From the NCBI RefSeq assembly GCF_900114495.1, contig NZ_FOZI01000003.1, positions 434,001 to 498,000 on the forward strand: a stretch of 64,000 nt of DNA, read 5' to 3'. The position numbers were made by a program, and so were the translations under genes. Below, in pieces: positions 15,001 to 41,139 of this stretch. The DNA comes from Dyella sp. OK004. Its GTDB lineage: Bacteria; Pseudomonadota; Gammaproteobacteria; Xanthomonadales; Rhodanobacteraceae. The notes under the pieces were generated by a model that had not been told where the DNA came from, ran no database searches, and saw nothing but the letters and a program-made list of their open reading frames with translations. How positions within the stretch are numbered: the stretch's first letter is position 1; every line of letters begins with the position of its first letter.

Positions 15001-16600
15001 GGTAGGCGTGGTGGGCCACCTGTTTATCGCGGGCATCGGCCTGGCGCGCGGCTACGTCAATCGCCCGGACCTGACCGCGCAGGCCTTCATCCCCAATCCG
15101 TTCAGTGCGACGGCTGGCGCGCGTATGTATCTGTCGGGCGACCTTGCACGCTACCTGCCGGACGGCACCATCGAGTATCTCGGCCGCAGCGATCACCAGG
15201 TGAAGATCCGCGGCCTGCGCATCGAGCTCGGCGAGATCGAATCGACGCTGGCAGCGATGGACGCTGTGCGCGATGTGGTGGTGCTGGCTCGGCCAGACGA
15301 GCGTGGCATCCCGCGCCTGGTGGCCTACCTGGTGGCTCGCGATGGCCAGGCATTGCCGGACCCGGCCGTATTGCGCCGGACCCTGACGCAGACGCTGCCC
15401 GACTATATGGTGCCGGAGTACTTCGTGCCGCTCCCGGTGATGCCGCTCACCTCCAACGGCAAGGTCGACCGCAAGGCGCTGCCCGCGCCGGAGATGGCGC
15501 ACGACGAAGCCGAGCACATCGCACCGCGTACCGCCATGGAGAAAGCGATCGCGGTGGTGTGGTCGGATCTGCTGAAGGTGGAGAACGTCGGCCTCACCGA
15601 CGACTTCTTCGAACTGGGCGGCCATTCGCTGCTGGCAACGCAGCTGGTCTCGCAGCTGCGCAAGCGCCACGTTGCCGAGATCGAGCTGCGCGACCTGTTC
15701 TCGCATGCCACGCTGGGTGCGCTGGCGGCGTTTGTCGATTCGCGCAAGCAGGGCAGCCTGCATCCGAACCTGGTGCCGATCCGCGCAAAGGGCTCGGCCG
15801 CGCCGCTGTTTCTGATCCACCCCATCGGCGGTGGCGTGCAGTACGCCTTCGACTTGTCGCAGCACCTGGATGCCAACCAGCCCGTGTATGGCCTGGCGGT
15901 GGGCGAAACGCCGCAGGCGAGCATCGATGGCATGGCGTCGACCTATCTGGATGCTATCCGCGAAGTGCGGCCGTCCGGTCCCTACTTGCTGGCCGGCTGG
16001 TCGCTGGGCGGCATGGTCGCCTATGAGATCGCCCACCGGCTGCTGGCGGCGGGCGAGGATGTGCAATTCGTGGGCATGATCGACACCAGCGGCCCGTCGG
16101 TGCGCGCGAAGCAGCGCGACGAGCATCCGGTCAAGCACGATGGCTGCCGTGCGCTGCTGAACTGGCTGCTCGATCTGAACTTGGTCGGTGATTGGCGCCG
16201 CCATCCCGCGTACCCCGAACTGATGGCGCGGGCTCTGCGTGGCGACCTCGAAGGCATGATCGCGCTGTGCTTCGACGCTGCGCTGGTGCCGCCCGGACTG
16301 GACGCTGGGGAGGTGCGGAGCACCGTGGCGCTGTACGAAGCGTGCGGCCGCGCGGCCGACGATTATCGGCCGCCCGCGGCACAGCTGCCGGTGACGTACT
16401 TCGCGGCGGATCGGCGCGACGGCGAGGACGTTGCGTTGGGCTGGCGCGAGTTGCTGGGCCGGCATCTGGAGGTGTCGAGGATCGGCGGTTCGCACCTGTC
16501 GATGGTCAAGGCGCCGCTGGTCGAAAAGCTCGCGCGGGATATCTCGGAGCGGATCGGACGTTACGCGTCGAACCTCTCTTTCACTGCTGCCAACCCCTGA
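2..16600 (+). CDS. trans-AT PKS/NRPS hybrid megasynthase, 3' part (5' end outside window)
   Basis: Multidomain assembly-line enzyme that extends a polyketide, adds one amino acid and releases the product. Approximate residues of the visible part: KR end 1-140; ACP (Ser208); KS1 296-727 (Cys465, His600); KR 914-1334 (TGGAGGLG); ACP (Ser1387); KS2 1474-1905 (Cys1643, His1778); KR 2080-2530; C-methyltransferase 2580-2900 (EIGAGTGGT); ACP (Ser2981); DH 3047-3330 (His3076, Asp3241); ACP (Ser3398); KS3 3486-3905; PCP (Ser4140); C 4200-4633 (HHIVSDG); A 4667-5167; PCP (Ser5209); TE 5257-5520 (GWSLGG, Ser5334). No AT domain follows any KS, only the post-KS linker ending in LPTYPF, so malonyl loading must be in trans. 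KS3 has Cys3642 but Gln3777 in place of the HGTGT histidine, so it is probably non-elongating. My reading of the A-domain pocket is DVWHMSLVDK, serine-like. The frame is open at the left edge, inside a KR, so the true start lies upstream. Stop TGA is 34 bases before the P450 gene. Confidence 0.97.
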   Translation: MLRAKVAGTLCLDEASSELALDAFIVFSSLAGAIGNVGQADYAAANAFIDAFAHQRNTLVAQGQRHGRTLSVNWPLWEQGGMRVDAATRRHLLQEKGMTPLATADGCDALARAWSLDSPQVLVVAGDPERLRAEVLGVAPMVEARTPDRIEHRSAPAPERQAESLDATAGDLRERSVRYLVRMLSATLKLPPQRIDAEARLEAYGIDSVMTLDLTARLEQAFGPLPKTLFFEYQTIAALADYFLQHHRAALAKLLGESSAVTAPTSTGTVPAPVAPVAASRLRTRFAARADAPEDGIAIIGVAGRYPQARNLEEFWTNLSQGRDSITEIPADRWDHSLYFDEDRNAPGKTYGKWGGFIDGVDRFDARFFNISPREAALMDPQERLFLECVHATLEDAGYTRENVAEDGDVGVFAGVMYEEYQLYGAQEQARGRFVAAPGSPASIANRISYFCDFHGPSLALDTMCSSSLTAIHLACESLARGGCVVAIAGGVNVSIHPNKYLVLAQGKFISAKGRCESFGEGGEGYVPGEGVGAVLLKPLAQARADGDHIYGVIKATAVNHGGKTNGYTVPNPNAQAKVIERALRAGGVDARHISYIEAHGTGTSLGDPIEIAGLSKAFGHWTQDRGYCAIGSAKSNIGHAESAAGIAGLTKVLLQLKHRQLAPSLHSAVLNPNIDFHATPFVVQQELAEWPRPVIDGRERPRIAGISSFGAGGANAHVVVEEYVSPAVTPVSAGPSMVPLSARDKERLRERARELLACLATPDITLADLAYTLQVGREAMDERLALLVHSLDELRDKLTAWLAGETAVEGLYLGQARRSAGALAALASDDDMAGTVATWFARGKYDRLLDLWTKGLHLDWRRLRGDDVHPRRVSLPTYPFAGERHWLPAGTAQLPSSVDHASMPEASAGPIETLMFRPAWAARPIAASDGDNFASRLVLLCGLEDGQAARIQERFPEATCLVAPTAADLAASFEAAAAMLLEKLQGLTAQAGRHLIQIVVPREGERQALAGLDGMLRTARLESPRLIGQLIAVDVGQDVVRALQDDGEAPRVRHLRGERQVIHWMEARPATHPASPWKDRGVYLITGGAGGLGLIFARAIASEVHNPVLVLTGRSAPDETIREQLRQLEALGAVVRYHAVDVADAESVAALVRGIPEEFESLDGIVHSAGVVRDSFLVAKTHEELRQVLRAKVAGTLNLDRASHDMALDAFICFSSIAGAIGSVGQADYAAANAFVDAFVHERAERVVRGERRGRTLSINWPLWAEGGMRVDAATRTMMRQQLGMHPLSSEEGVRILRDAWTSDAHQLLVVAGEPERIRDAVLGTASPTTVERPLAVAEDEEIAVTAASSREALWQSLANLVSSLIKVKPEDLDGETTFSEYGFDSVSLTEFGNALNQHYQLRLTPTVFFEHPTLNGLADHLMRDHGVVVASSPVRTRAVANASVASVSAPSPRATQEPEPAPVIDEPIAGESIAIVGMSGRFPHAADIDAFWQNLRDGRDCIDEIPPARWDWRSLHGDPGREAHRTNIIWGGFIDGVDEFDPMFFGISPKEAELMDPQQRLVMIHVWKALEDAGYASAALAGSDTAVYIGTGATGYGRLIDRAGLGGEAYASTGGVPSVGPNRISFLFDWHGPSEPVETACSSSLIAIARGVAAIRRGDASVAVVGGVNTIVTPEAHISFSKAGMLSADGRCKTFAAEADGYVRGEGVAMLVLKKLADAERDGDHIYGLVRGVAENHGGHANSLTAPNPTAQAEVIRKAQRQAGVDPRTVTYVEAHGTGTRLGDPVEVQGLKAAFGDEAVAAPYCGLGSVKTNIGHLELAAGVAGVVKVLLQMKHRMLVKSLHSDRLNPYLELDGSPFYVVRDAGEWAPLRDARGQVLPRRAGVSSFGFGGVNAHVVLEEYLAPVTARASSEGPVAVLLSARDEERLREQIRLLLDFVTSDVVDLADLAYTLQVGREAMETRLALVVTSMDELRNQLRLIVSGGKEAGRVHRGTASRGRRDATHDARTVAAWVEAHDFDQLLDAWVQGLVFDWRSLYGARTPRRISLPTYPFARGRYWVPDATMPSRGGVAEPAASGHEWLLLPTWQVVEPKLAPSAQEGRSLIVGGSPTQRAALLAALPDAAALEWPALADIAAIEYRLRASGSFDRLVWLVDINEAGASNDDESLVDAQGRGVIAGFRLIKALLALGFDKRALDWTIVTVQTQAVHGSDAIAPRHAAVHGFAGAVAKEFAHWRLRLLDLAREGAWPVDTMCRLVDEPRGATLAWRGGQWFRQVLSPIDAASVEGASPYREGGVYIVIGGAGGIGQAWSEHMIRTYRARIVWIGRRPEDDTIAQARARLGAFGPMPLYIAADASDRAALERVREEVLACHGAIHGVVHAAIDLLDKSVAQMDEERLRAGLSAKVDASVRIAQVYSALPLDFMLFLSSLAGFVRAAGQGSYAAGCTFKDAYALHLAKRLPYPVKVMNWGYWGSIGAVASDDYRERMARQGIGSIEPGEGMRALDRLLRSPMPQLGFLKATREDVCGGVFDLVGDARVSLHPARFDSLAQTLAQGAAPVFPGDAAQLAAEGREIDRLALAILRGELQAHGLTDPALVASRHARWLRHSLRWIAEAEFTAAPSLERAWAAWNERKAAWLGAGNVRQAQVALVDTMLRALPSILQGRVEATAVMFPDSSMRLVEGVYQGNAVADHFNDVLCDAVLAFVAARVARDPAARIRIVEIGAGTGGTSARVMARLAPYAEHIGEYCYTDLSRAFLLHAEGKYGPHYPYLAYRLLDIGSPLEGQDIKVGAYDLAIATNVLHATRDIRESLRNTKALLGANGLLMLNELASCELWSHLTFGLLDGWWLYEDEALRISGCPSLSPARWDAVLREEGYRHVHFPAEPAHGLGQQVIVAESDGVSLQKRLLKAGAAASVSARVDIATVSHPAAAAPVRSSADAASLRERCRARLAKLVGKALKIPASEIDTATGLDRYGMDSILVLELTHALRAAFEDIGIEDRVTSTLFFEHPTIDALADHFVTTESDAMARWTGTEARVTPSVRPHPMLHRDTSDASARRYASHFDGEEFFLADHRVQGRRVLPGVAQLEMVRAAAQAAMPGSARVRLGKVTWVRPAVADEAGLSLNLTLMPEQDGAFRFALRGDGGAVYSQGIASSDAIPAESADRHDFASLRARCAMAHVDHERCYAVFERKGLQYGAAFRGVDELFVGKGEVLAKISLPASVASSLPDYVLHPSLLDAALQSSLGLHLAAHGEDGIALALPFAVDAVQVFAPCVAQMWAYVRHAEAAATGSNISQLDIDLCNANGEVCVRLEKLSLRTVNPKLPRETNNERNSPDMNDSMGITSHHSHADTLPSAAVLREKSTLQFRKLISRRVSLPLEVIEAGVGFDEYGLDSIVVMELTEALREVFGAQNIGATLFFEHRDIEGLVEHFMQADPAALARWAGLDTAAPAAPPVHASGAQARDVLPVEATIPSVPANAAPFDVAIVGMSGRYPGANDVHQFWENLAAGRHSVTEVPPERWDHSRFFDEHKGKPGKTYARWAGLLDDVQGFDRLFFNIAPGEARLMSPQERLFMQEVHASVEDAGYTAANLSVGRKIGVFVGVSNEHYATGARFWSIANRISHLCNFQGPSLAVDTACSSSLTAIHLALESLRSGDSEVAIAGGVNLIVAPTQLIDLASMTMLSADDKCKSFAAGADGFVDAEAVGAFVLKPLHRAVADGDHIYGVIKGSAINSGGKTNAYLVPNPNMQAQLVTDALRRAGIDARTVSYVEAQGTGSHLGDPIEVAGLAKAFRHWTQERQFCALGSAKSNVGHSESASGFVAVSKVLMQMKHAMLAPSLHAATPNPEIRFADTPFFVQQALAPWPRPQLDVDGHRREFPRRAGVSSFGAGGANAHLLIEEYVEPAMPGRAGQPSGPAMIVLSARDAERLKARAERLLAALAPERHAVDLTLMDVAYTLQVGREAMEERLALLAQSLDDLRVKLAAFVAGSREVDDLYMGQAKRSAFSALADDEDMQTAVQAWVAKGKYGKLLDLWVKGFAFDWNALYAGGARPRRVSLPTYPFARELCWTDVRYPDAAEALPVSGAVRADSATVAAAAPVVRMADPAHTMMRIWCELLGRPSVALDDDFFELGGHSLLATQLAVRIRDEFGVDVPVGTILEAPTVAALVQRLPMSAPTLDGLEIPPQPIPVAAQDAAFPLSFAQQRLWFLDQLEGHSPTYNIPAAVRLKGRLDAGALEGALNDVVARHDALRARFGSADDTPVQYIAAHLDLPLVLHDLRGIASKERDAKTRWLMLDEARTPFDLQGGPLVRASLLRLADEEHLLLLTMHHIVSDGWSMGILVRELGTLYANRSFSAGASLPELPMRYVDFARWQREWLSGEVLERQLAYWKQQLAGSPTLLTLPTDRPRPSTQGQDGAALAYALPAELGAKLHALSRKSQGTLFMTLCAAFNVLLARYSGQSDICIGTPIANRNRSEIEDLIGFFVNTLVLRTQVDLRAGFTDLLKQVRATTLDAYAHQDVQFEQLVGAVQPERHTSYSPLFQVMLVLQNAPLNLALPGLELELVPHETVTAKFDITLTLSEGPQGLYGSFEYNTDLFDHATMERMAGHFSHLLQAIVAEPERPVGELSMMGEAERRHLVYGFNDTAKVYPRVGPDTHTLHQLFEAQVVRSPDHAAVVYEGVSLSYAELNARANRLARHLRRLGVGPDVLVGLCTERSIEMIVGLYAIVKAGGAYVPLDPTYPADRLATIVEDAAPAAILTQQHLRHAAPSVSGVPVLCLDGDAGTWAGEDAGNPANATQPGHLAYVIYTSGSTGKPKGVGIDHRGIVNRLQWMQEAYPLTSADRVLQKTPFSFDVSVWEFFWPLLEGATLVVARPGGHQDVAYLAGLIDAEGITTTHFVPPMLEVFLNEVEPGSGRSLRQVMCSGQALPMDLQQRFFATWDHVELHNLYGPTEASVDVTYWQCRKDSALNCVPIGKPIANIQIHILDDFLNPVPVGVVGHLFIAGIGLARGYVNRPDLTAQAFIPNPFSATAGARMYLSGDLARYLPDGTIEYLGRSDHQVKIRGLRIELGEIESTLAAMDAVRDVVVLARPDERGIPRLVAYLVARDGQALPDPAVLRRTLTQTLPDYMVPEYFVPLPVMPLTSNGKVDRKALPAPEMAHDEAEHIAPRTAMEKAIAVVWSDLLKVENVGLTDDFFELGGHSLLATQLVSQLRKRHVAEIELRDLFSHATLGALAAFVDSRKQGSLHPNLVPIRAKGSAAPLFLIHPIGGGVQYAFDLSQHLDANQPVYGLAVGETPQASIDGMASTYLDAIREVRPSGPYLLAGWSLGGMVAYEIAHRLLAAGEDVQFVGMIDTSGPSVRAKQRDEHPVKHDGCRALLNWLLDLNLVGDWRRHPAYPELMARALRGDLEGMIALCFDAALVPPGLDAGEVRSTVALYEACGRAADDYRPPAAQLPVTYFAADRRDGEDVALGWRELLGRHLEVSRIGGSHLSMVKAPLVEKLARDISERIGRYASNLSFTAANP

Positions 16601-16634
16601 TTGATCAAACATGACCGCCCAAGAGGGGAATGCC

Positions 16635-18122
16635 ATGAACGAAACGATCGCCTCGGACGAACTCGGCCTGGCTGCGGAAGCACCGGCCGAGTTGAGTTAC
16701 ACGCGCCGCATCGAAGATCTGCCCGGCCCAAAAGGCCAGCCCTTCGTCGGCAATGCGCTGCAGCTCAGCGGCCGGCAGATGCACCAGAAGTTCACTGCCT
16801 GGGTGCGCGAGTTCGGGCCGATGTTCCGGCTGCAGGTGTTCGGCCACACCATCGTGATCGTCTCTGACGCTGCCACCGCGCATGGCGTGATGCGCGAACG
16901 CCCCGATGGGTTCCGGCGCAACGGCGGCCTGAAGCAGGTCATGAATGAGCTGCACATCGGTGGCGTGTTCACTGCCGAGGGTGCTGCGTGGCGAAAGCAG
17001 CGCAAACTGGTGATGAGCGGACTCAATGCGGAGGTCATCCGCAACTTCTTTCCGAAGATGGTCACTTTGACCGAGCGGATGCTGGAGCGCTGGAAAGCGG
17101 CGGTGGCCGAAGGTCGCGCCGTGGACCTGCGCCGCGACCTCAAGGCGATGGCGCTGGATACTATCGTCGGCATCGCTATGGGCCACGACATCGATGCGGT
17201 GAACCACGACGGCGACCCGCTGCAGCGCGATATCGACAATATGTTCCAGCGCCTGGGCAACCGCACCACCGCGGCGTTCCCGTACTGGCGCTACTTCAAG
17301 CTACCGGTGGATCGTGCGGCCGAGCGCTCGTTTGCCGATATCGAGGGGAGGGTGGTGGAGTTCATCCGCCACACGCGCGAGCGCATGGAGCAGCAGCGGG
17401 AGCTGCAGCGCAAGCCCGCCAATATGCTGGAGGCAATGATTGCGGCCAGCGAGGATCCCGAATCCGAGTTCACAGACGAGGAGCTGGTCGCCAACGCGAT
17501 CCTCAGCGTGATCGGCGGCGAGGACACGACGGCCAACTCGATCGCCTGGATGCTCTGCCTGTTGGCACAGAACCCGGCGGCTGCCACCGCGCTAGCCGCC
17601 GAGGTGGATCAGGTGCTCGGCACCGCGCCGCTGCCGCGCGAGTGGGAGCAGATGAAGGCGTTCTCTTACCTGGAGGCGGCGCACAGCGAGACGCAGCGGC
17701 TGAAAGCGGTCGCTCCGTATCTCGGGCTCACGGCCAATGCCGATTGCGTCGTCGCTGATACCTTCATTCCAAAGAACACGGCCATCATTGTTGCGACGGC
17801 AGGCGAGGGGCGCGACGAGGCGCAGTTCCCCGGACACGAGCGATTCCGACCCGAGCGTTGGATCGCGGAGATGCGCGACCCGGAGGAGGAGGATCCCAGC
17901 CGCAAGCTGTTCCCGTTCGGCGGCGGCGCACGATTGTGCCCGGGACGCTTCCTGGCGCTGACCGAGATCAAAGTTGTGGTCGCGATGATCATGCGCAACT
18001 TCGAACTCGAGCCCGATCCCAAGGCGCCGCCGGCGAAGGAGCTGCTGAATTTCTTCATGGCGCCCAGCTCGGTGCCGGTGCGTCTGAAGTTGCGCGTGCC
18101 GCCAGTAGGGGAGGGCCATTGA
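16635..18122 (+). CDS. cytochrome P450
   Basis: Haem-thiolate monooxygenase, likely a tailoring oxidase for the polyketide-peptide. The protein is 495 residues. It shows the I-helix GGEDTTAN, the ExxR motif (ETQR), the PERW segment and the haem loop FGGGARLCPGRF with Cys435 as the expected iron ligand. I chose the ATG at 16635 because AAGAGGGG lies six bases upstream; an in-frame ATG at 16611 would place that site inside the gene. There is no fused reductase, so ferredoxin partners must come from elsewhere. Its final codons overlap the TTG start of the MATE gene (TTGA), which points to co-translation. Role in this pathway is inferred from position; the family call is secure. Confidence 0.95.
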   Translation: MNETIASDELGLAAEAPAELSYTRRIEDLPGPKGQPFVGNALQLSGRQMHQKFTAWVREFGPMFRLQVFGHTIVIVSDAATAHGVMRERPDGFRRNGGLKQVMNELHIGGVFTAEGAAWRKQRKLVMSGLNAEVIRNFFPKMVTLTERMLERWKAAVAEGRAVDLRRDLKAMALDTIVGIAMGHDIDAVNHDGDPLQRDIDNMFQRLGNRTTAAFPYWRYFKLPVDRAAERSFADIEGRVVEFIRHTRERMEQQRELQRKPANMLEAMIAASEDPESEFTDEELVANAILSVIGGEDTTANSIAWMLCLLAQNPAAATALAAEVDQVLGTAPLPREWEQMKAFSYLEAAHSETQRLKAVAPYLGLTANADCVVADTFIPKNTAIIVATAGEGRDEAQFPGHERFRPERWIAEMRDPEEEDPSRKLFPFGGGARLCPGRFLALTEIKVVVAMIMRNFELEPDPKAPPAKELLNFFMAPSSVPVRLKLRVPPVGEGH

Positions 18123-28335: not shown

Positions 28336-28697
28336 GTCACTCCGTGCGCCGGTCGTGGTTTCCTACGCCGGCACCACGTCGAGAACGCTTTGCGTTTTCG
28401 ATGCTTGTCGCACTTTGGATAATGCCGCTTGCCACCCAAGCCCTCGCCTCGCCGCATCCATCGCCGCAACGAGCGACGGGGCAGGGGCGATTGGCTCGTG
28501 TTATCGGGGGTAGGGCCAGCGTCTGCTTTTCGACCCTGAGGTGTCATTCGACGTCTTGATTTGGCTGCTACAAAGCCGCCGGTCGGAACTTTGCCTGCGC
28601 TCGGCATGCGCAGTTTGGGCTCTGTGCGGCAGAGGAGCTAGGTGCGATTTGTGCCCATGGGGCATCCGCTTGTAAATCACCCATGTGCGCCTTACAG
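28336..28697 (+). other. intergenic stretch with one dispersed repeat
   Basis: No plausible gene. It contains one copy of the dispersed intergenic repeat (28481-28530) and, at its right end, the promoter region of the ArsR-type gene. Confidence 0.6.
28481..28530 (+). repeat. dispersed intergenic repeat, copy 1
   Basis: Shares the core GTTATCGGGGGTAGG and a GCGTCTGCTT tail with the copy at 34268. It lies between a hydrolase gene and the ArsR-type gene. Confidence 0.75.
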
Positions 28698-30525: not shown

Positions 30526-30711
30526 GGGCCCGCGAAGCGCTCACGGAGCTATCAGGGCGCGGGAGAGTTGCGTGTGTCCTTTGATGTTTTGAACGAACGG
30601 ACACGCCGCCGCGGACACGTGATGGTTCATGGGTGAGGGTGGTTGTGATGTGCAGTGCCTAGCTCGGCGGCAGGCACCATCCGCACAGCTCTAAGTAGCT
30701 TTTCCCGCGGC

Positions 30712-33537
30712 TTAACTCCGACGTTCGAGCAGCAGCGGCGAAGCCAGCCTACAGTCTGGGTGCATCCGGTTAAGGCTGTGGATCGCGCCAGCCAGACCAG
30801 TCATCAGACCCGGCGTAAAGGCGGCGCGAGTCATCCCGCCGATCACGCCGTGATGCTCCTCAATGGCCGAAATGACCTGGGCGGTCGGCTCGTCCGGGTC
30901 GATGGTGGAGACGTCGGGATCCAATGCCGCGGCGCGTACGAACAACTCCCATAGCGACAGGTCACCGTGGCAAAGCGTATGGCTTGAGCCCCACTGGCCA
31001 TGCGAGGCCGCAACGGCGCGACGCAGGGTGCGCAGATGACGCGGATCGCGCGTGCGCGCGTACAGGTCGCTTGCGGCCAAGCCGATCCCGACACTGCCGT
31101 TGCACCAGGTGTGGAAGGTTTCGGTGGCGCCCAGTTGACGCATATCGAGCCAATTGCCCAATGTCTCGTCGTAGAGCGAATCCTGGAACGCGAACGCAGC
31201 GTCGGCGAGCGCGCTCCAGCGCATACGGTCAGCCTCGTCGCCGGCATCGGTCAACGCCAGCCGCGCCAGTGACCAGCCGATGCCGACGGCGCCGTGGGCG
31301 AATCCGCCGATCGGCTCGGCGAACACGGGTGTCCGCCAGCGTGCGCCACGCGCATCGACGATAGCTGCGGCTTCCAAGTGCCGTGCCGCCCGCGCAGCGA
31401 GCGCGAGCCATCGCGCGTCGTCGGTGGCTTCGGCCAGTTGTAGCAGTGGCACGATGGCGCCGCTGGCCCCGTCGATGATGTCAAAGTAGAGATCGTTGTC
31501 GAAGCCTTCGTGCGCCAAAGCCTCGGCACATGTCACGGCGTTCGCGATCAACTCAGGACGCCGCAACAGATCATGCAAAGTCAGCCAGGTCCAGATCTGC
31601 GCACCGTAGCCGCTAAAGCCGCCGATCGTCCTGGGTTTGTCGGCCGCTACCAATGTCTGCAGGATGTGCAGGGCGCCGTCGAGTGTCTCTTCGATACCGG
31701 GCACCATGTCTGCGCGACCGCATTCGACCTCGCATACGTAGCCAGCCAGTGCGATCACCACACCACCGAGGCCGAAGTAGACATCGGCTTGCAGCGGTTG
31801 GACCAGCCAGCCACTTTGGGTAGTTTCCGGGGTAATCCAGGTCACCGAGCCATCGTCACCGCGCACCGCAAGCCGCAGCAGGCGCTCGACCGCTTCCAGG
31901 GCAAGCTTGCGGCGGCGTGCATCGAGACGATCAGTATGCGGATGACGAGCGAAGTAATGGCGCCTGTTATCTACGGGCTCGTCAACGCTTCGATTGAGTT
32001 TTGTCGCGACCAGCGCACTGCGAATGGTCAGTTCTTCCAGATCGATACGCATCGCCCGCCAGTCGGCCACGGCCGCATCGATCCGCGCGCGCGTCAGCGG
32101 CGCCGCGAATACCGGCACATCGCCGTAGCGCAGATCGTCGATCTCGGCCGCTATCTCCTGCGCAGCCGATGGCGCGATCGATACCACGAGAGCATTGCGT
32201 GCGAGTAAGTCTCGGGCGCGCTCGATCGCCTTGGCTTCATCGTGCAGCGAAGCGGGGTGCCACAGCATGCGCCCGATTTCCATATAGGCCTGGGTCGGTC
32301 GGCGGATGTCGCGGGCCTGGCAGTGCTCGAATGCGGCCAGCAACGGCATCAATTGACCATCGGTGTCGACTTTGCGCAGTTGCGCTGTGGCGGCGAGAAA
32401 CCCTTCGCTTATCTGGTCCCAGTACAACGATACGTCCGGATTCGAGCCGGGATGATTCCGGGCCGGGGTCACGTCGACATTGATGACCTTTAATCGCGCC
32501 TCCGTCGTGCCTTCGCCAACGATAATCGGCGCATGCACTTGTGGTTGCTGGTTCGGCAACGCGCCGGCTGCAGAAATGTCGACGCCATCAAAGCCTAGCG
32601 CCGGCGCGCGGTATGGGACGATGCCGGTACGCAACACTGAGCTGCGAATCAGCACCTGGGCAAGATCGTAAGCTTGACCGTATGGCGATGGCATGCCTTT
32701 GTCGATGACGGCGAATAGACTCTCGACGTCGATCACCACCGGTACCGGACCTGCGGCGATCAGATTCTCTAAATGTATGTCTGTGCCACCGAGCAAACGC
32801 AACACCGCCAGCCAATGTCCCAGGCCGCGATAAAAGATCCGCAGCTCGTCTTCGCTTTCGCAGTGGCGCTGGACAACGTAGGCGGCCCAGCCATAGTCGC
32901 CGCGGTCGATCACCTCGGGCACGCGGATGCGATCCGCGGTGGCGCCGAAAACGCCGGCAAGAAATGCATCGAGCACGCTGTCGATGCGTAGTGAGCGCGG
33001 CTTGTACATTACCTCGCCACCTTCCAGCGACAACCGCGCCACGGCTTGTCCGCCTGCGTGCAGGTCGCCTTGCCCCAGGGTCAGCGCAGTCAGACGTCCA
33101 GCGGGTCGGCCAAGCAGGCGCGCCAACGCGCTACGGTCGGCGATAAACCGCATCAGTAGCGTCTCGATGGATGTTCGCTGCTGGCTGAGTGCGCGCTGCA
33201 GGCGTTTGCGCAATGGCGGGTAGCGACGATCCAGATGCTCGGCGAATTCCGGTTGCAGTGAGCGCTCGACGAATTGGGCGAAGCGACCGGCGTCGTCTTC
33301 GGCTGTCAGTTCGCCCGCTCGCTTGGCCGCATGCAGCTCCAGCAGTAGTACGCGATTGAGCTTGAGTCGCGCTGTATTGTGCACGGCCTCTTCGGCCGCC
33401 GAGCGGATCGATGCTGCTTCGCCTAGGTCGAGCTCTGTTGATAGTTCCGCGAGGCGGGCAGCGAACGCTGCGCGTGTAGAGGCGGTGAAATGCTCAATGA
33501 TGCGGGCGAAAGCATCGGGTGTGCTTGTCTCGACCAT
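30712..33537 (-). CDS. lanM: class II lanthipeptide synthetase (LanM)
   Basis: Bifunctional enzyme that dehydrates Ser/Thr of a precursor peptide and forms (methyl)lanthionine rings. 941 residues from ATG 33537. The N-terminal ~550 residues carry LanM dehydratase (DUF4135) features such as VMYKPRSLRIDSV, HLENLI and PVVIDVESLF. The C-terminal LanC-like cyclase has an FGLGG segment (about 600) and the three zinc ligands: Cys812 in TWCNGSVGIGL and Cys856/His857 in CHGDLSLWE. The open frame extends to a TTG at 33594, but that codon lies in the hairpin between the two genes; GGAAGGA about 13 bases before 33537 is a weak site. It lies downstream of the precursor gene on the same strand. No LanT transporter/protease is adjacent. 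Confidence 0.95.
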   Translation of the reverse strand: MVETSTPDAFARIIEHFTASTRAAFAARLAELSTELDLGEAASIRSAAEEAVHNTARLKLNRVLLLELHAAKRAGELTAEDDAGRFAQFVERSLQPEFAEHLDRRYPPLRKRLQRALSQQRTSIETLLMRFIADRSALARLLGRPAGRLTALTLGQGDLHAGGQAVARLSLEGGEVMYKPRSLRIDSVLDAFLAGVFGATADRIRVPEVIDRGDYGWAAYVVQRHCESEDELRIFYRGLGHWLAVLRLLGGTDIHLENLIAAGPVPVVIDVESLFAVIDKGMPSPYGQAYDLAQVLIRSSVLRTGIVPYRAPALGFDGVDISAAGALPNQQPQVHAPIIVGEGTTEARLKVINVDVTPARNHPGSNPDVSLYWDQISEGFLAATAQLRKVDTDGQLMPLLAAFEHCQARDIRRPTQAYMEIGRMLWHPASLHDEAKAIERARDLLARNALVVSIAPSAAQEIAAEIDDLRYGDVPVFAAPLTRARIDAAVADWRAMRIDLEELTIRSALVATKLNRSVDEPVDNRRHYFARHPHTDRLDARRRKLALEAVERLLRLAVRGDDGSVTWITPETTQSGWLVQPLQADVYFGLGGVVIALAGYVCEVECGRADMVPGIEETLDGALHILQTLVAADKPRTIGGFSGYGAQIWTWLTLHDLLRRPELIANAVTCAEALAHEGFDNDLYFDIIDGASGAIVPLLQLAEATDDARWLALAARAARHLEAAAIVDARGARWRTPVFAEPIGGFAHGAVGIGWSLARLALTDAGDEADRMRWSALADAAFAFQDSLYDETLGNWLDMRQLGATETFHTWCNGSVGIGLAASDLYARTRDPRHLRTLRRAVAASHGQWGSSHTLCHGDLSLWELFVRAAALDPDVSTIDPDEPTAQVISAIEEHHGVIGGMTRAAFTPGLMTGLAGAIHSLNRMHPDCRLASPLLLERRS

Positions 33538-33589
33538 CGTTTGCTTGGAATCCTTCCAGTGCAGGAGGCAGTTCGCAAAACTGTCGATG

Positions 33590-33624
33590 ATCAACGCGCA
33601 GCCATCATCGGGCTGCGCGTTGAT
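33590..33624 (-). terminator. hairpin between lanthipeptide precursor and synthetase genes (attenuator)
   Basis: A 14-bp perfect stem (ATCAACGCGCAGCC with its complement) closes a 7-base loop, directly after the precursor stop and before the synthetase. There is no following T-run, so partial attenuation or transcript stabilisation is likelier than full termination. This would make precursor mRNA exceed synthetase mRNA. Confidence 0.75.
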
Positions 33625-33635
33625 AGAAACTTAGT

Positions 33636-33839
33636 TCAACAACAATCACACCCGCCGAAGCCACCGCATGAAACGGTCGTGGCGCTGGTAAACATGTTCA
33701 TCCCAGCGGTCGAGCCGGTCAGTGCCGCCTCGGTCGCCGCTGCACCTTCGATGTAGAGTGGGCCGGCCGGATTCTCCATGCCGTCAATGCTGTCCGAACC
33801 ACTAAGCCAGCCCGAAACAATATCGTCAGTCTGTTGCAT
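33636..33839 (-). CDS. lanA: class II lanthipeptide precursor peptide (LanA)
   Basis: 67-residue peptide just upstream of the LanM gene. The leader (DDIVSGWLSGSDSIDGMENPAG) resembles the mersacidin/lichenicidin-type leaders in its acidic residues and ENPAG segment. The C-terminal FTSATTVSCGGFGGCDCC has five Ser/Thr and four Cys, enough for up to four thioether rings. Cleavage could follow STAG (a GG/AG-like site) about 20 residues from the end; this is a guess. AGGAG seven bases before the ATG is a strong ribosome site. The ring pattern, and whether the peptide is antibacterial, cannot be read from sequence. Confidence 0.87.
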   Translation of the reverse strand: MQQTDDIVSGWLSGSDSIDGMENPAGPLYIEGAAATEAALTGSTAGMNMFTSATTVSCGGFGGCDCC

Positions 33840-34486
33840 AGCGTTACTCCTGAGCTATTGAGTTGGATTTGAATGGCAGCCAATCCCACTCGTTCGGGAT
33901 TGAGGCCACTTCCGAACATTGCTCTTCAAGACGTATGCGGGAGTCCTTAGCCAGGCCGACTTGGCAGCGTGTCGAAGCCCTCCGTGGAAACACCGCGCCA
34001 TACGTTGGGCGCACTGGGGCGCGATTGTCAACGTGAGTGGCGGCCCTGCGCTGCTTTTGTTTGGCGACCTGCATCACCTGCATAGAGGCAAAGGCGCGCA
34101 GGCGTGGAGGGCGCCGGGGATCGCCCCCCCTCACTGGTTGCTATTCGGACCGGCTGCTATCTGACAGATAGCGGACTTGCGGCTAAGGCCAGTCATCGGC
34201 GAGCTGGGAATGTCCGCCTACCAGGGTGGACATTGGCAAGCCAGAGCTAGTCTGTGGCGGCCAAAAGGAGCAGGGGGATTAGGTCAAGTTATCGGGGGGT
34301 AGGGGTGGGCGTCTGCTTCCCATCCGTTGCCGCCATAGGCTTGCATGGAAGCAAACGGCAACCAGCTAGTACATCGCCAGCGCCAGCATCGATTGTGGCC
34401 AGCTAGAATTGAGCACATAGCGTGAGCACGACTCGTCGGTGGGGATCTTGTCGCAGACCTGGCCGCTTCATCTAGGAGGCACTGGC
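33840..34486 (+). other. intergenic region between lanthipeptide locus and helicase gene
   Basis: Holds the promoter of the precursor gene (minus), one dispersed repeat (34268-34321) and the helicase leader. A 96-codon minus-strand frame ending at 33844 is open but lacks a ribosome site and a recognisable family. No lanT-, lanI- or regulator-like gene is present. Confidence 0.6.
34268..34321 (+). repeat. dispersed intergenic repeat, copy 2
   Basis: Contains GATTAGG, then AGTTATCGGGGGGTAGG and GCGTCTGCTT, closely matching copy 1 in order and spacing. Confidence 0.8.
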
Positions 34487-37180
34487 ATGGCGTTGGTTGC
34501 AGAGCAAATCCGGAGTGCAAACGCAGCGATCTGCCAGAACATCGACGCGCTCGGCGAGCAACGCCCGCTACTGTCTCAGAACGTGCTCGCGCAGCTTCGC
34601 AACCTGGTCGAAGGCGTCCTAGTGCGCCTGCATCTTGGCACAGGCGACGCTGAGTTCGGGTACGACGCCGTCAAGCCGGCGCTGGCGTACGTGCGGAGCC
34701 AGGGAAAGCTGAACTTCCTCAGCCGTTTCCATAGCTTGCTGCAAGTCAGCAGCTCGCACTACACCCTCGACGGCGATGCCTCCGAGCGGCTGATGCTCAA
34801 ATACTGCGAATACATGTACCGTCTGCGCAGCCTGGTCCGGACTGCCTGCGCCATGGACGTACTGGGCAACCTGGAATTATTCCCAATCGACCTGGATCCG
34901 TCGCTGCGCGAGTATCACCTGAAAATCGCACGACGGATCGAGGCAGTGCGTGGCACGAAGCTGGATCGGGAGGCTGGTGCGCGCTACTACATCCACAGGA
35001 TCCGACCCTTCTTCGTAGAGGGTCACATCTATTACGAGGTGACCTTTTATCGCGCTGTGAACCGGGTGAGCAAGTTCGATCGCGCCATCGCATTCACCGA
35101 CATTGACATGACCGACAAATACTCGGCCTACCTGGTTCTGCAACGCGACGCGATCCGCGTGCTCGACCAGACGATGCCCATCACGCTCATCCGCGCATGG
35201 GACGTATCGATACGACCGTGCGAACTGGACAATTTCGCGCGACTGCTCGGCATCCGGACCAAGGTCCGTAGTAGCTCGGCCGAGTTCCACTACCTGATGC
35301 AGGGGCTGACAGCGACCTCAGGAAGCTTGTTGGATCTAATGGACATGGAAGAGAAGGATTATCGATCGGCCCGCTTCGTTCCCAAGGCCGGTGACGCCCC
35401 CATCATCTTCTCGATACTGGATGAAGCGCGGCGGATCATCCGCTCCCGAGCCAACGGCTACAACCTAATTCGTTACTTGATGCTCCGCATGCACAACCAT
35501 GTGCTCAAGTCGCAATATGCCGCCGACCCATGCCGGTGGCTGTCGAACCTGCGCTTGCAGCTGGGCTGCATTCCATTCGAGAAGATGCCGTTTTGCACCT
35601 CGCCCCGCGACCACAACCCGCGCTTTTCGGACCTTATCGAAGCATTGGATGCGGGCCAACGGCGGCACGAATTGCTGGCGCGGCGGCTGCAAATCAATGT
35701 CGAGCAACACGGCATGCTTTACACCCCGGTTGAAGACTTGGAAGCCTTTGGCGACCCGAAGGCGTTGATCGCGGCATTCAACGGCAATCTTTACCATAAG
35801 CACGGACACAGAACGCTCGAGCAGGACAAGGACCACGTCTTCATTCGCGGCTACGAAGATGAGACAGCCGCCATCGTCTCGACTTTACAAGCGGCAGCGG
35901 CTGACGGTATCGCTGGCTACACTCAAGCAGTGGCGCGCTGGCTGGAACATACGCTCCGTGAGATCGACGACCCGGCAAAAAAGGATGCGCTCGAGCGCCT
36001 TTTCAGCGACTCCAAAGTCGCTTTGATTTATGGTGCCGCGGGCACAGGCAAGTCGACCATGGTCGATCACATCGCCAATTATTTTAACGACAAGTCGAAG
36101 CTTTTCCTGGCGCACACCAATCCGGCCGTCGACAACCTCAAGCGCAAGGTCAATACCCAGAACGCCACGTTTCGGACCATTAGCAGCCACATTTATCGGA
36201 CAGGCTTCGATCCGGAATACGACTTGCTGATCATCGACGAGTGCAGCACGGTCGGCAACTCAGACCTGCTCAAAGTGCTCCAGAAGACCTCGTTCAAGCT
36301 GCTAGTGCTTGTGGGGGATGTATATCAGATTGAGTCCATCCAGTTCGGCAACTGGTTTTCTATCATCCGCGCGTTCCTGGCCGACAGCGCGATCTTCGAG
36401 CTGACAACACCCTTCCGGACGAAGAGTCCTGCGCTGCTGCTGTTCTGGAACAAGGTTCGTAACATTGACGACGATATCGACGAAGTGATTGCGAAGAATG
36501 GCTATTCCGGAGTTCTGGACAAGACCCTCTTCGAGCACGTCGGCGACGACGAGATCATCCTGTGCCTGAACTACGACGGCCTGTATGGCATCAACAATGT
36601 CAATCGCTTCCTTCAGAGCAGCAACCCCAACCCCGCTATTCTCTGGCGCGAGGCGACCTATAAGGTCGGTGACCCGATTCTTTTCAACGAGTCCGAGCGT
36701 TTTCGATCGGTCCTATACAACAATCTTAAAGGTCATATCGTGGCCATCGAGCAGGGGCAGGGTTCGTTGCGCTTCGATGTCGAGGTCGATCGCTCGCTCA
36801 GTGCCTTCGACGTCGTTGGCACCGAGTTAGAGTGGGTGGCCGGATCGACGGTGCGGTTTACCGTTGTCGACCAGGACACAAGCGATGACGACGATGACGC
36901 GTTGTATACCGTGGTGCCTTTCCAAGTCGCCTATGCGGTCTCCATCCATAAGGCACAAGGCCTGGAGTACGATGCGGTAAAGATCGTAGTGACCAACGCC
37001 AACGAGGAAGATCTGACACATAGCATTTTCTACACGGCGATCACCCGGGCGCGGCAGCACTTGCGGATCTTCTGGACGCCGGAAACCCAGCGGAAGGTAT
37101 TGGCGAATCTTCGCCGCACGATCAATCCCAAAGACGTCGCGCTACTTGCGGCTCGTCGTGGATTCACGCCCGCGCGCTAG
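34487..37180 (+). CDS. SF1 (RecD-like) helicase/ATPase with long unassigned N-terminal region
   Basis: 897 residues. Residues ~510-880 are a superfamily 1 helicase: motif I GAAGTGKST (Lys522), motif II LLIIDECSTV (Asp584, Glu585), motif III VGDVYQIESIQFGNW, motif IV-like TTPFRTKS, motif V/VI SIHKAQGLEYDAVKIVVT and YTAITRARQHL. These fit the RecD2/TraA branch with a UvrD_C_2-like end. The first ~500 residues have no motif I recognise; they are mostly helical and contain no obvious nuclease signature. Start ATG 34487 has AGGAGG seven bases upstream. It is convergent with the ABC-3C operon and lies in the same accessory island, so a role in nucleic-acid conflict is plausible but inferred. Confidence 0.88.
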   Translation: MALVAEQIRSANAAICQNIDALGEQRPLLSQNVLAQLRNLVEGVLVRLHLGTGDAEFGYDAVKPALAYVRSQGKLNFLSRFHSLLQVSSSHYTLDGDASERLMLKYCEYMYRLRSLVRTACAMDVLGNLELFPIDLDPSLREYHLKIARRIEAVRGTKLDREAGARYYIHRIRPFFVEGHIYYEVTFYRAVNRVSKFDRAIAFTDIDMTDKYSAYLVLQRDAIRVLDQTMPITLIRAWDVSIRPCELDNFARLLGIRTKVRSSSAEFHYLMQGLTATSGSLLDLMDMEEKDYRSARFVPKAGDAPIIFSILDEARRIIRSRANGYNLIRYLMLRMHNHVLKSQYAADPCRWLSNLRLQLGCIPFEKMPFCTSPRDHNPRFSDLIEALDAGQRRHELLARRLQINVEQHGMLYTPVEDLEAFGDPKALIAAFNGNLYHKHGHRTLEQDKDHVFIRGYEDETAAIVSTLQAAAADGIAGYTQAVARWLEHTLREIDDPAKKDALERLFSDSKVALIYGAAGTGKSTMVDHIANYFNDKSKLFLAHTNPAVDNLKRKVNTQNATFRTISSHIYRTGFDPEYDLLIIDECSTVGNSDLLKVLQKTSFKLLVLVGDVYQIESIQFGNWFSIIRAFLADSAIFELTTPFRTKSPALLLFWNKVRNIDDDIDEVIAKNGYSGVLDKTLFEHVGDDEIILCLNYDGLYGINNVNRFLQSSNPNPAILWREATYKVGDPILFNESERFRSVLYNNLKGHIVAIEQGQGSLRFDVEVDRSLSAFDVVGTELEWVAGSTVRFTVVDQDTSDDDDDALYTVVPFQVAYAVSIHKAQGLEYDAVKIVVTNANEEDLTHSIFYTAITRARQHLRIFWTPETQRKVLANLRRTINPKDVALLAARRGFTPAR

Positions 37181-37250: not shown

Positions 37251-37290
37251 TAGGGGAGGGCAATTAGCCCATGCTGTCGGGGGTAGGCTA
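37251..37290 (+). repeat. dispersed intergenic repeat, copy 3
   Basis: Divergent copy (GCAATTAG then TGTCGGGGGTAGG) in the short gap between the convergent helicase and ABC-3C genes. It runs to the last codon of the DUF3732 gene. Confidence 0.6.
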
Positions 37291-39237
37291 CGATTCTAAT
37301 CCGCGCTCCTCATCCCATTCGAAGGGAACGAGAGCCACCCCATTTCGCCAGCGCTCGACGATAGTCTCTTGATACCATGGCTCCATTATGTCCGCGTGTT
37401 CAGTGATGATGACCTGCATGCGAGGAGACAAATCCTGGACGACATCCTTTATGAGCTGAAAGATCCGAATCACGGCCAATCTGTCCTCATCGTGCACGTC
37501 GACCTCGTTCACATCTCTCCCTTTCTCAGCAGGGAAATAAACCTGCGATGGCTGATCGAGAAAGAGGAAGCGAGGCACGGGACGGACCTTACGTGCGAAG
37601 AAGTCATGAAGCGAAAGCAGTGCAATAAGGTGGCAACCAAGCCAGGTGGCGCCGCTGCCCATGCGATTCATCGGAACCGGACCTTCATCAGCGTCTGCAA
37701 CGACTAGTAACTTCTTAGGATCGAGCCGAAAAGGAATGCCGCTGTGTTCCAACTCAAGATGTTTTGCCCAACGAGTCATCAGGTTGCCGAGTCGGCTCAT
37801 AATCGAGGCAGTGCGTTCTCGAACACTATCATCGCTCAGCAACGAATCGAGTTGGGCGATTCGTTCACGCAATGCACCAATTTCAGCGGCAAGCTTATCG
37901 TTATCCTGAGCGGTAGGCAGGGATTCTAGCGTGAGACTAATGCGCCCGAGGACATGAGCCCTCCGGGATGCTGCATCGCGCATCGATTGGAGACGCGCGT
38001 CGGAAGCACGAATCGATTCGAGAGCAGACCAGTTGTTACGAAGTGACCCTTTTAAGTCGTTTAGCTCTTTAGTCTTTTCAGAGATCAAGGTGTCTAGGCC
38101 GGGGGTATGCCTAAGCACGTTCTGCAGTTGGCTTCTCGCCATCTCGAGTTCGGAGCGTAGCTCTTCCACCAGCGGCATCGTTGCTGGTAAAGGCTGGATA
38201 CAAATCGGGCAGGTGTGCTTGTCGTCACCTAGCAGGCCTATGCTTTCGAGCCTAGCGACCTGTTCGCCGGTTTCGTTAGCAAAACTGCCCTCATCCTTCC
38301 GAAGCCCGGTCATCGCCTGCAACTCGTCGTTGATGAAATGCAGCCTTTCTCGTAGCTTGATCCGTTCACTACTGAGGCGCACCAACTCTGCTTGATCGAC
38401 CTCTGATGCAACCATTTCCAGATGCTCCGCGGTTGGAGCATTGCCAGCTGCACGCAGCGACTCTATGGCATTGCTATAAGAGGCTGCTGAGAAGTCCGGT
38501 GCAATCAAACCTACGTTTTTTGCCTCGGCAACAAGGCCGTCCACCCTCCCTTCACTTGTGAGCGATAGTGAACGCGCCAGCTCGGATTCCTTCATGCGAA
38601 GGTCTCGTCGTAGCGTCCTTAGCTGAGCGGAAAGCTCGACGTGGTCGTCTTCGACGGCTCCGATAAAGTAGGGGAAAGTGTCCTTGATCCCCTGAGCAAT
38701 CCAGTGATCACTTTGGCCATGAAACAGGAACCCAGGCTGCGAGATCTCCGTCTGCTTTTGGAACGCGTAGGCCAGCGCGTGCCGAATGCCCGCCGAGAGC
38801 TCGCGGCGGGTCTGACCTTCAGGTGGCGTATGACGATGCGCGCCTATGCCTATGGCCAGCTCAATTCGAGCCATCACTGCGTCAATATTCGCGGTGACTG
38901 ATAGCTGTTGGAAAGTGGGAATAGTGAGCGCCGAGCCCGTGACATAGTATGCGTCCGATGTCGTTGTCTTACCCCGGTCCGGCGCGCGGCGAGCGACGAA
39001 GTGTTCGGAACTGCCGTCGGTTAGGCGCAGTCCATACCAGTCAATAGTCCGAGCCATGATGCCGTGTGGAATGTTGCACGTTGAGCTGCCGAGGCAATAG
39101 TCAACAATATCGATCAGGGATGATTTTCCTGTGCCGGACTCGCCTGTGATGATGTTTACCTTGCCGGGCTTCAACGGAACGATCCGTGGGGAACGTCCGG
39201 CGGAGTAGATGACGATGTCGAGAATTTGAATGCTCAT
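37288..39237 (-). CDS. ABC-3C system SMC/Rad50-like ATPase (DUF3732)
   Basis: 649-residue ATPase, the ABC component of a three-component conflict system. Walker A is GESGTGKSS near residue 33. A central coiled coil carries a CPIC pair (DKHTCPICIQPLP) like the Rad50 zinc hook. The C-terminal half has MGSGATWLG in place of the ABC signature, Walker B FLFLDQPSQ and the switch His in IITEHAD. These features match DUF3732 proteins. Start ATG 39237 overlaps the stop of the middle-component gene (ATGA). It would sense altered DNA or nucleoprotein and license the effector; that role is inferred from the family. Confidence 0.9.
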   Translation of the reverse strand: MSIQILDIVIYSAGRSPRIVPLKPGKVNIITGESGTGKSSLIDIVDYCLGSSTCNIPHGIMARTIDWYGLRLTDGSSEHFVARRAPDRGKTTTSDAYYVTGSALTIPTFQQLSVTANIDAVMARIELAIGIGAHRHTPPEGQTRRELSAGIRHALAYAFQKQTEISQPGFLFHGQSDHWIAQGIKDTFPYFIGAVEDDHVELSAQLRTLRRDLRMKESELARSLSLTSEGRVDGLVAEAKNVGLIAPDFSAASYSNAIESLRAAGNAPTAEHLEMVASEVDQAELVRLSSERIKLRERLHFINDELQAMTGLRKDEGSFANETGEQVARLESIGLLGDDKHTCPICIQPLPATMPLVEELRSELEMARSQLQNVLRHTPGLDTLISEKTKELNDLKGSLRNNWSALESIRASDARLQSMRDAASRRAHVLGRISLTLESLPTAQDNDKLAAEIGALRERIAQLDSLLSDDSVRERTASIMSRLGNLMTRWAKHLELEHSGIPFRLDPKKLLVVADADEGPVPMNRMGSGATWLGCHLIALLSLHDFFARKVRPVPRFLFLDQPSQVYFPAEKGRDVNEVDVHDEDRLAVIRIFQLIKDVVQDLSPRMQVIITEHADIMEPWYQETIVERWRNGVALVPFEWDEERGLES

Positions 39238-39767
39238 GGACGAACGCCCCATAGGGCCATAACAGTGGAATAGTCGCCTGAAGCCGCGAACCAACGACCC
39301 ACGAAGTGGGCCATCTTTGCGCAGTCGATCACTTCTGCGGTCGCAAACCCTGCACCATATTTATTGACCCGCCTCTGTGACGCGAGCGGTGCGATATGCG
39401 TGCCCTGAAGTTGAATGAGGCCTCCGGCCGATGAAATGGCGATCGCTTGTCGAACCAGCGGAGCAAGGGCGCGAGCCCTATCGGGAAACCCCACCTGCGC
39501 GAAGGGGTTAACGCTCAGCCACGCCACAAGGCTCGTATTGATACGCCGAGGGAGCGCCTCACGTGTCACTTTCTGCAATACAACCGGAAGTACGACGAAG
39601 GCGAGCGCGTATGGTAGTCCCTGCTCATCGTCTTGCTCCTCCTGGTGCCCCTTTGCGGCCATGTAAAGCAGGGTGCCCAGGAACGATGGATTCAGCAGGC
39701 GGATCTGCTCTATCGGCTGGCGGTGCCAGGATGCGTCCTTTTTTCGGAGCCCAATGGTCTCATTCAT
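39234..39767 (-). CDS. ABC-3C system middle component
   Basis: 177 residues, no catalytic motif. The opening segment (EQIRLLNPSFLGTLLYMAAKG) and the length agree with the middle component (MC) of ABC-three-component systems, a small alpha-helical adaptor between effector and ATPase. Start ATG 39767 overlaps the effector stop, and its own stop overlaps the ATPase start, both by four bases (ATGA). This double coupling is strong evidence for a three-protein complex made in fixed ratio. Confidence 0.85.
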   Translation of the reverse strand: MNETIGLRKKDASWHRQPIEQIRLLNPSFLGTLLYMAAKGHQEEQDDEQGLPYALAFVVLPVVLQKVTREALPRRINTSLVAWLSVNPFAQVGFPDRARALAPLVRQAIAISSAGGLIQLQGTHIAPLASQRRVNKYGAGFATAEVIDCAKMAHFVGRWFAASGDYSTVMALWGVRP

Positions 39768-40978
39768 GCGGCTTGCGTCCGGCTTTCCAGCAAATGCTGC
39801 AGCTTGGACATGAAGTGGGGATGCCAACCCACTCTCAGATCATTAGCCAGCATATGAAGCGAGCCACGAGAGATGCTGGGATTGTCCACGTTCTTATGGA
39901 TGGGAAAGCAAGAAGTCTCCACCCACTCATAGATCCTCTTAGCCATCTGCTCCTGTTCTACCTCTGCCAGCTCCCGCCCAATATCGTCAAGTGCGCGCTG
40001 GAAAATGAGATCCCATTCCTCACAAAGTTTCTGCTCATACTTATCAAGGTCGCCTACCATCACTAGGCTCTCTCGCACCCAGCGCGATCGCTGTTCAAAA
40101 GCGCGGTAGTAATCGCGCACGGCAGCAAGTACGCGGCGATCATTGATGCCAACTAGCTTGGCCTGATGAACGAATATTTCATTTTCATAAGCAGTCATGT
40201 CGACCACGTGATCGAGGATGTCGTTGTCAACGGGAAGAGCGCTGACCAACTGCTCACGAATATCATCCATCTGCGCCTGGAGATCGACGCTCCTGATGGG
40301 AAACTTCGAGCCCGCTATCAAATGTCTAAGGGAGGCGGTCAACCACCAGCCCTCAAGCCGGGATAGGAAGGACTCAACGTGATCTCGCCTCACGGTGAAG
40401 CGTATCTCGTGACGAATATCGTGCCCAACCTGCTCGATGTTCGACGCTCCCGGAGCGATGACGATCGATGACACTAAAGCAGCTTGCTCCTTTTCAGGCA
40501 TCGCGAGGAAGAGAGTGTATGCGGGGATATTCGTGGAGTTCGTCGAAGTCTGAGCAGTGATGCGCATCGCGGAGAGCGCGCCAGCCTCATCTCGGGACGC
40601 GGCTAGGAGGCGGCTGGCTATCGACCCTGATGCAACGCCATGCGTTGTCATTAGGATCAGGCGATCGCCGGAAGCAATTGCCCCGGATGCACGGCCTTCA
40701 ATCCAGATACGAAGTGACTTCCAAATGTCTGGAGATGCGTCCGTCAGATTGGCCAAGCTGTTGGTGTGGTGCTTGAGCTGGAATAGCTCCAAGGGCGTGC
40801 CAATGGATTCGAAGACGACGTCGTCCAAGGTCTCTAGATAAACGGAGAAGCCGTCGTCAGAACTGGTGTCTATACGACGAAGGGCTGTCAGCAACGCGAC
40901 GCGTATCTGATATAGGTACCCCAGTGCAGAATCGCCTGCTCCGAAAGCAGAGCTTCCGCTCGCGATTGACGTTGTCAT
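39764..40978 (-). CDS. ABC-3C system effector with restriction-endonuclease-like N-terminus
   Basis: 404 residues, first gene of the operon. The N-terminus reads SALGYLYQIRVALLTALRR, then acidic YLETLDDVVFE, then LELFQLKHH. This is the GYxYQ ... E49/D53 ... Q67-x-K69 pattern of the Cap4/DUF4297-like branch of the PD-(D/E)xK nuclease fold. The remainder (100-404) is helical and should contain the ABC-3C C-terminal domain that docks to the middle component. ATG 40978 is preceded by an AGGGGGG run; an upstream in-frame ATG at 41047 is less supported. I infer a DNA nuclease killed or armed by phage or plasmid invasion; no assay-level evidence exists in sequence. Confidence 0.85.
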   Translation of the reverse strand: MTTSIASGSSAFGAGDSALGYLYQIRVALLTALRRIDTSSDDGFSVYLETLDDVVFESIGTPLELFQLKHHTNSLANLTDASPDIWKSLRIWIEGRASGAIASGDRLILMTTHGVASGSIASRLLAASRDEAGALSAMRITAQTSTNSTNIPAYTLFLAMPEKEQAALVSSIVIAPGASNIEQVGHDIRHEIRFTVRRDHVESFLSRLEGWWLTASLRHLIAGSKFPIRSVDLQAQMDDIREQLVSALPVDNDILDHVVDMTAYENEIFVHQAKLVGINDRRVLAAVRDYYRAFEQRSRWVRESLVMVGDLDKYEQKLCEEWDLIFQRALDDIGRELAEVEQEQMAKRIYEWVETSCFPIHKNVDNPSISRGSLHMLANDLRVGWHPHFMSKLQHLLESRTQAA

Positions 40979-41139
40979 CCGTCCCCCCTGTCCCTTGATC
41001 GCTTCGATAAAGCGCACCAGCGATTCGACTGCCGGCTTTCCTGCCAACGGCGCGATGGTCGCATGGATGAGGCGGGCGCTCCACTATGCGTCCAGCTCAG
41101 TCATTACCGCATAACCCGCACAACTGCAGCCTGTCGTTT

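Follow-up and report, generated by a model that had tools for sequence, protein, structure and literature searches.

We analysed a 64,000-nucleotide stretch of the genome of Dyella sp. OK004 (hereafter, the window) that carries a small lanthipeptide locus consisting of a precursor gene (lanA), a hairpin and a gene for a class II lanthionine synthetase (LanM), all on the minus strand, which the original prediction for this locus did not specify. We are highly confident that these two genes form a class II lanthipeptide cassette that belongs to the DUF6229 family and, though close to the rhodanocins, has a core type of its own. Judging by its genes, the cassette is genuine, intact and an ordinary representative of lanthipeptides already described, with a four-Cys core unlike that of rhodanocin.

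The lanA gene (33636–33839, minus strand) is preceded by an AGGAG ribosome-binding site and encodes 67 amino acids, among which both the ENPAG motif of the leader and the terminal CGGFGGCDCC can be read directly from the frame, as originally described. The product belongs to DUF6229, matching the Pfam model PF19740 over residues 1–67 (83.1 bits, E = 1.3e-23, curated cut-off 25); a match to the model of linaridin-like ribosomally synthesized and post-translationally modified peptides (NF033403 of NCBIfam, 16.2 bits) is below the curated cut-off of 40 and was rejected. The leader probably spans roughly residues 1–41; an alignment of 12 sequences shows conservation in this part and variation in the core. 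The seven Ser and Thr residues of the core (43, 44, 51, 52, 54, 55 and 57) are all N-terminal to all four Cys (58, 64, 66 and 67).

The lanM gene (30712–33537, minus strand) encodes 941 amino acids from a probable ATG. Its open frame extends over 30712–33594, with a TTG start located within the hairpin; the ATG at 33537 appears likelier given that GGAAGGA is found ahead of it, that the homologous frame of Dyella tabacisoli begins there and that the TTG is inside the hairpin. The protein matches TIGR03897 (491 bits, cut-off 304) and contains the PF13575 (290 bits) and PF05147 (112 bits) domains. Residues 44–876 align with LicM2 (6st5), and the K-P-R, D-x-H-x-x-N, I-D-x-E and C / C-H motifs, which we take to be the catalytic and zinc motifs, are conserved between the two proteins. 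The locus is identified as class II by a precursor gene that adjoins lanM, whose product has both a dehydratase and a LanC-like domain, in agreement with the minimal locus first proposed.

The hairpin (33590–33624, minus strand), also correctly placed in the original prediction between the precursor and LanM, begins 11 nt past the lanA stop codon and has a perfect 14-bp stem with a 7-nt loop. The surrounding 91 nt fold at -36.2 kcal/mol (z = -4.9), and none of 200 shuffled sequences folded equally well. A stem directly follows the lanA stop in all 16 loci of the window type (see below), and in 14 of these at most one of 100 dinucleotide shuffles was equally good. In an alignment of 11 of the 16 loci (the other five were omitted), both sides have changed with pairing kept in one or more sequences for 7 of 11 consensus pairs. 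Inverted repeats behind lanA genes in other lanthipeptide operons limit transcription between lanA and lanM. Folding and the comparison with relatives suggest that the hairpin is a probable attenuator or partial terminator that most likely trims transcription between the two genes. Three points weaken the comparison with relatives: for the remaining two stems, 3 and 5 of 100 shuffles were equally good; the 3' arms of two sequences in the alignment (L061 and L068) are visibly misplaced, which makes the pair counts approximate; and a simple hairpin finder overlooked several stems, including that of D. tabacisoli (L058), the count of 16 being that of a second finder.

The paucity of Gram-negative examples stated in the original prediction is not borne out. 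DUF6229 is present in 38 of the 197 sampled genomes of the same bacterial family (own genome counted) and has been published as a lanthipeptide precursor family (PMC9576775; PMC11451712). According to the latter, 21 of 27 unique class II precursors of Lysobacter, a sequence network of which comprises six families, are annotated as DUF6229; these precursors share with that of the window the Pfam family and the class II type of locus. We further applied two leader patterns, derived from 12 sequences, to a collection of 84,980 species genomes, so that groups with other leaders are under-represented. The scan yielded 45 loci, retrieved from 6 kb upstream to about 3 kb past LanM, with hosts that include Dyella, Luteibacter, Luteimonas, Lysobacter, Rhodanobacter, Rudaea and their relatives as well as Streptomyces, Amycolatopsis, Kitasatospora, Embleya and Wenjunlia.

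In all 45 loci the precursor is followed by LanM (matched in pieces in L097 and cut by the contig end in L102). The neighbours were additionally checked in 18 of the 38 DUF6229 genomes (own genome counted) by fetching 20 stretches of 20 kb, two of which represent, respectively, the C39 gene and the second DUF6229 locus of the own genome; a LanM adjoining the precursor by coordinates is found in all 19 regions of this family sample. Given that LanM comes after the precursor in every scanned locus, the precursor-plus-LanM layout is normal and not a fragment, and the suggestion that the locus is partial can be dropped. The two-gene arrangement is nevertheless not universal, which counts against too strict a reading of it: two tandem precursors are present by coordinates in G020, G021, G114, G142 and G192.

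Several of these loci deserve a separate mention. Tandem DUF6229 precursors precede a single LanM in L038 (G020:C11, 49906–50915) and L042 (G114:C1, 6939–7399). In L052 (G084:C2, 10482–13408), the LanM beside the DUF6229 precursor is divided between two frames and is possibly broken or misassembled. Loci L080, L086 and L089–L102, from Streptomyces, Amycolatopsis, Kitasatospora, Embleya and Wenjunlia, each combine a DUF6229-like precursor with a LanM, and 8 of these 16 carry the Cys signature of rhodanocin.

Rhodanocin is the single relative of the window peptide with a solved structure. As described in the original report (PMC9576775), co-expression of the DUF6229 precursor of Dyella sp. 333MFSha with its LanM in Escherichia coli resulted in four dehydrations and three rings, identified by nuclear magnetic resonance, that join positions 6–11, 8–14 and 12–23; the product (LanII of FAST-RiPPs), for which the authors introduced the name rhodanocin, was weakly active, with a minimal inhibitory concentration of 126 uM against Klebsiella pneumoniae, and orthologues were noted in several genera of Rhodanobacteraceae. 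In another paper (PMC11165876), strain 333MFSha appears among the Luteibacter mycovicinus strains. The spacing Cys-x2-Cys-[Thr/Ser]-x-Ser, which corresponds to Cys8, Cys11, Thr12 and Ser14 of the published rings, is found in 22 of the 45 scanned precursors.

The window peptide shares with rhodanocin the Pfam family, the leader type and an associated, related class II LanM (53–57% identical to the rhodanocin-type LanMs of Dyella and Luteibacter), so that one could assign it to the rhodanocins in the strict sense and expect the rings published for them. We consider this extremely unlikely. In rhodanocin, Cys 8, 11 and 23 are interspersed with Thr12 and Ser14 and one ring links Cys8 to Ser14 (PMC9576775), whereas the four Cys of the window core follow all Ser and Thr; the published rings require a Ser past the first Cys, and the window core contains no Ser or Thr there. 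The core four-Cys pattern thus differs from that of the single solved relative, in line with the unfamiliar core noted originally. What speaks against transferring knowledge from rhodanocin likewise limits our own reading: the rhodanocin frame is absent from the window core, the published topology is therefore not transferable, and the rings proposed here for the window peptide are predictions.

The phylogeny of LanM supports a distinct core type. In a tree of 56 sequences, which omitted L052 and the regions duplicating named loci, the window LanM belongs to an 18-member clade (support 1.0) composed of the 16 window-type sequences and two from Lysobacter antibioticus, whose precursors have a CSSCSAS core. 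This clade is nested in a 31-member clade (0.96), in which its sister group contains rhodanocin-type LanMs. Some branchings among the window-type sequences are poorly supported (0.42–0.92), which detracts from the finer grouping. Among the window-type precursors, 14 of 16 (window counted) have Cys-x-Cys-Cys near the C-terminus. In the loci from Luteimonas (L059, L060), Lysobacter sp. Root690 (L085), Rhodanobacter (L081, L082) and ZG21-1 (L063), the cores end TTCS...GCACC; these loci resemble the window in the leader type, the terminal Cys-x-Cys-Cys, a LanM that is 67–71% identical and the hairpin after lanA, but have Ser after the Cys of TTC, where the window has Gly, and Ala within CxCC, where the window has Asp. 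L059, L060 and L085 also have one extra upstream Cys compared to the window.

The genome of Dyella sp. OK004 (8 contigs, 99.99% complete) encodes a second DUF6229 and LanM pair on another contig (G000:C8, 178783–181818, minus strand; loci L002 and L035), the precursor of which belongs to a different core group ending CGTACTGSHTRYCC. Known two-component lanthipeptide systems have two precursors and two LanMs, and the presence of the same set of genes in one genome raises the possibility that the two loci jointly produce a two-component lanthipeptide. The separate contigs and the low identity of the two LanMs (just 39.9%) make this very unlikely, as does the genome of D. tabacisoli (G002), where the single DUF6229 match is of the window type and the other type was not found.

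The cassette of D. tabacisoli L4-6 (L058/L037) is nearly identical to the one in the window. The precursors are identical at 66 of 67 residues, and completely so from residue 43 onward. The homology covers 3334 bp (30703–34036, 88.3% identity by blastn) and ends on both sides, with the D. tabacisoli cassette located at another genomic site among unrelated flanks; the shared upstream stretch (33840–34036, minus strand), where the homology ends, is presumed to contain the promoter. Between the two lanM genes, identity is 92.8% at the protein level, 88.2% for codons and 72.7% at four-fold sites. Given the high protein identity relative to that of the four-fold sites, lanM, by this comparison, is under purifying selection. 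The four-fold identity is 45.6–65.9% for eight genes in one region; a ninth row of this comparison (48.1% protein, 96.7% four-fold) resembles a non-coding frame and was dropped. Together, these figures modestly favour, short of proof, a transfer of the cassette between species. The case is weakened by gltA, whose raw DNA identity with D. tabacisoli is 88%, the same as that of the cassette.

The immediate neighbours of the cassette are an alpha/beta hydrolase gene on the left and, on the right, an SF1 helicase gene followed by a Lamassu-type defence system. There is no transporter, protease or immunity gene among these immediate neighbours, as had been noted originally for LanT, protease and immunity genes; the scan against the family library covered part of the genes in the 64-kb window. 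LanT peptidase-transporters are usual but not obligatory for class II lanthipeptides.

Clustering of the flanking frames of the scanned loci revealed one recurrent neighbour gene, which encodes an ATP-binding cassette (ABC) exporter of about 550–580 amino acids and is located either directly downstream of lanM or divergently upstream of lanA. The best match of two such exporters is PRK10522, which we take to be the YojI type (342 and 366 bits, below the cut-off of 604); the same two proteins score 294 and 283 bits against the TIGR01194 cyclic peptide exporters (cut-off 286), and the one scanned with Pfam lacks a C39 domain. This YojI-like exporter adjoins all 10 rhodanocin-type loci examined from Dyella and Luteibacter (L045, L074, L075, L076, L077, L079, L083, L084, L087 and L088); G047, G111 and G132, from among 12 rhodanocin-type precursors of these genera, were left out of the check. 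The 13 other scanned loci that carry the rhodanocin signature (two with incomplete flanks) have no such neighbour, and neither do the 16 window-type loci, window included. Weaker ABC-transporter frames blur this distinction: frames of 49–55 bits (at least 827 for the YojI-like exporters) are encoded 2–5 kb from the L058/L037 and L040 cassettes, and one of 63–64 bits adjoins LanM in two Embleya loci.

Elsewhere in the own genome, the search for C39-peptidase transporters advised in the original prediction returned a single C39 protein, a 229-amino-acid FapD-like product on contig C6; it was rejected as a dedicated peptidase-transporter, with FapD as its best match (142.7 bits, cut-off 330) and no ABC domain seen. 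The 39 matches of this genome to TIGR01194 were likewise rejected as a dedicated exporter, all being below the cut-off (best 101 bits) and none reaching E 1e-40. The situation in other genomes complicates our reading. Frames with a C39 domain of at least 700 amino acids (ABC domains unchecked throughout) are encoded in 8 of the 12 DUF6229 genomes examined and in 6 of 8 genomes with the window type, including a 727-amino-acid frame in D. tabacisoli, whereas the window genome has none that long. TIGR01194 is matched at E 1e-40 in 6 of the 12 genomes, among them two window-type genomes (G032 and G052) where the exporter is encoded away from the cassette; only the own genome and G167 (86% complete) have neither. 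Some relatives could therefore use their C39 or TIGR01194 proteins. Maturation may rely on enzymes encoded elsewhere, as originally suggested; the C39 transporter proposed for this role was not found in the own genome and is possible only in relatives.

Could the window then carry the remains of a cluster that lost its exporter and protease and makes no product? Such decay would fit the lack of a nearby exporter, compared with the YojI-like one in all the rhodanocin-type Dyella and Luteibacter loci examined, and the shortage of C39 and TIGR01194 candidates in this genome relative to those of its relatives. Both genes are open, however, lanM appears to be under purifying selection when compared with D. 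tabacisoli and compensatory changes preserve the stem of the hairpin; the absence of the exporter from all 16 window-type loci implies that it was probably not lost from the window locus. We accordingly regard decay as unlikely and retain the intact two-gene cassette.

Two published systems provide points of comparison. In the work on rhodanocin, the test peptidase LahT150 failed to cleave the precursor (PMC9576775). The gammaproteobacterium Wenzhouxiangella AB-CW3 is described as having a class II lanthipeptide locus with an adjoining type I secretion system (PMC7691419). We found no paper on the exporter of DUF6229 peptides.

Under the intact-cassette reading, LanM would bind the conserved leader, phosphorylate core Ser and Thr and eliminate the phosphates, and then add the four C-terminal Cys thiols onto the dehydrated residues. 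Given that every core Ser and Thr precedes every Cys and that the Cys are crowded at 58, 64, 66 and 67, a fully closed product would contain nested or overlapping C-terminal rings, each spanning the 57/58 junction. The hairpin would probably end most transcripts after lanA, by putative attenuation, such that the substrate is made in excess of the enzyme. The cassette itself is complete, and leader removal and export would be performed by functions encoded elsewhere. A bolder proposal, which we advance only tentatively and consider rather improbable, is that window-type cassettes are complete mobile units that never had an exporter or a leader peptidase, their peptide being trimmed and released by the general machinery of the host or else acting within the cell.

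The remainder of the window contains other features of interest. The 913-amino-acid SF1 helicase gene (34439–37180, plus strand) is divergent from lanA and adjoins the Lamassu genes; its product gives an almost complete match to PDC-S53 (1319 bits), a family that PADLOC treats as a defence candidate. The Lamassu-type system (37288–41047, minus strand) comprises matches to LmuB (427 bits), LmuA (218 bits) and LmuC (43 bits, in an overlapping frame at 39234–39827), along with DUF3732 and ABC-3C CTD7 domains. A giant frame of 5532 amino acids (2–18122, plus strand) encodes ketosynthase, KR and carrier domains of a polyketide synthase in its scanned part (2–5002) and is followed by a cytochrome P450 gene. 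A repeat at 28499 and 34287 was considered as a pair of cassette borders and rejected: a genome search for the exact 14-mer gave a single occurrence, no more than for the reversed control with its one match, and the pattern of the looser copies is lax enough for chance matches.

Taken together, Gram-negative bacteria cannot be said to have few DUF6229 peptides, and a precursor followed by LanM is the rule rather than a sign of damage. The four-Cys core presents a putative ring pattern of its own in a family one member of which was reported as weakly active against K. pneumoniae. If the window-type cassettes are indeed complete mobile units, the conserved leader and the LanM clade would constitute a platform for swapping Cys-rich cores between species. 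The missing export route is the most interesting point that remains and, given that searches of its genome returned no YojI-like exporter and no C39 transporter, Dyella sp. OK004 is well suited for studying the leader removal and release of such a peptide.

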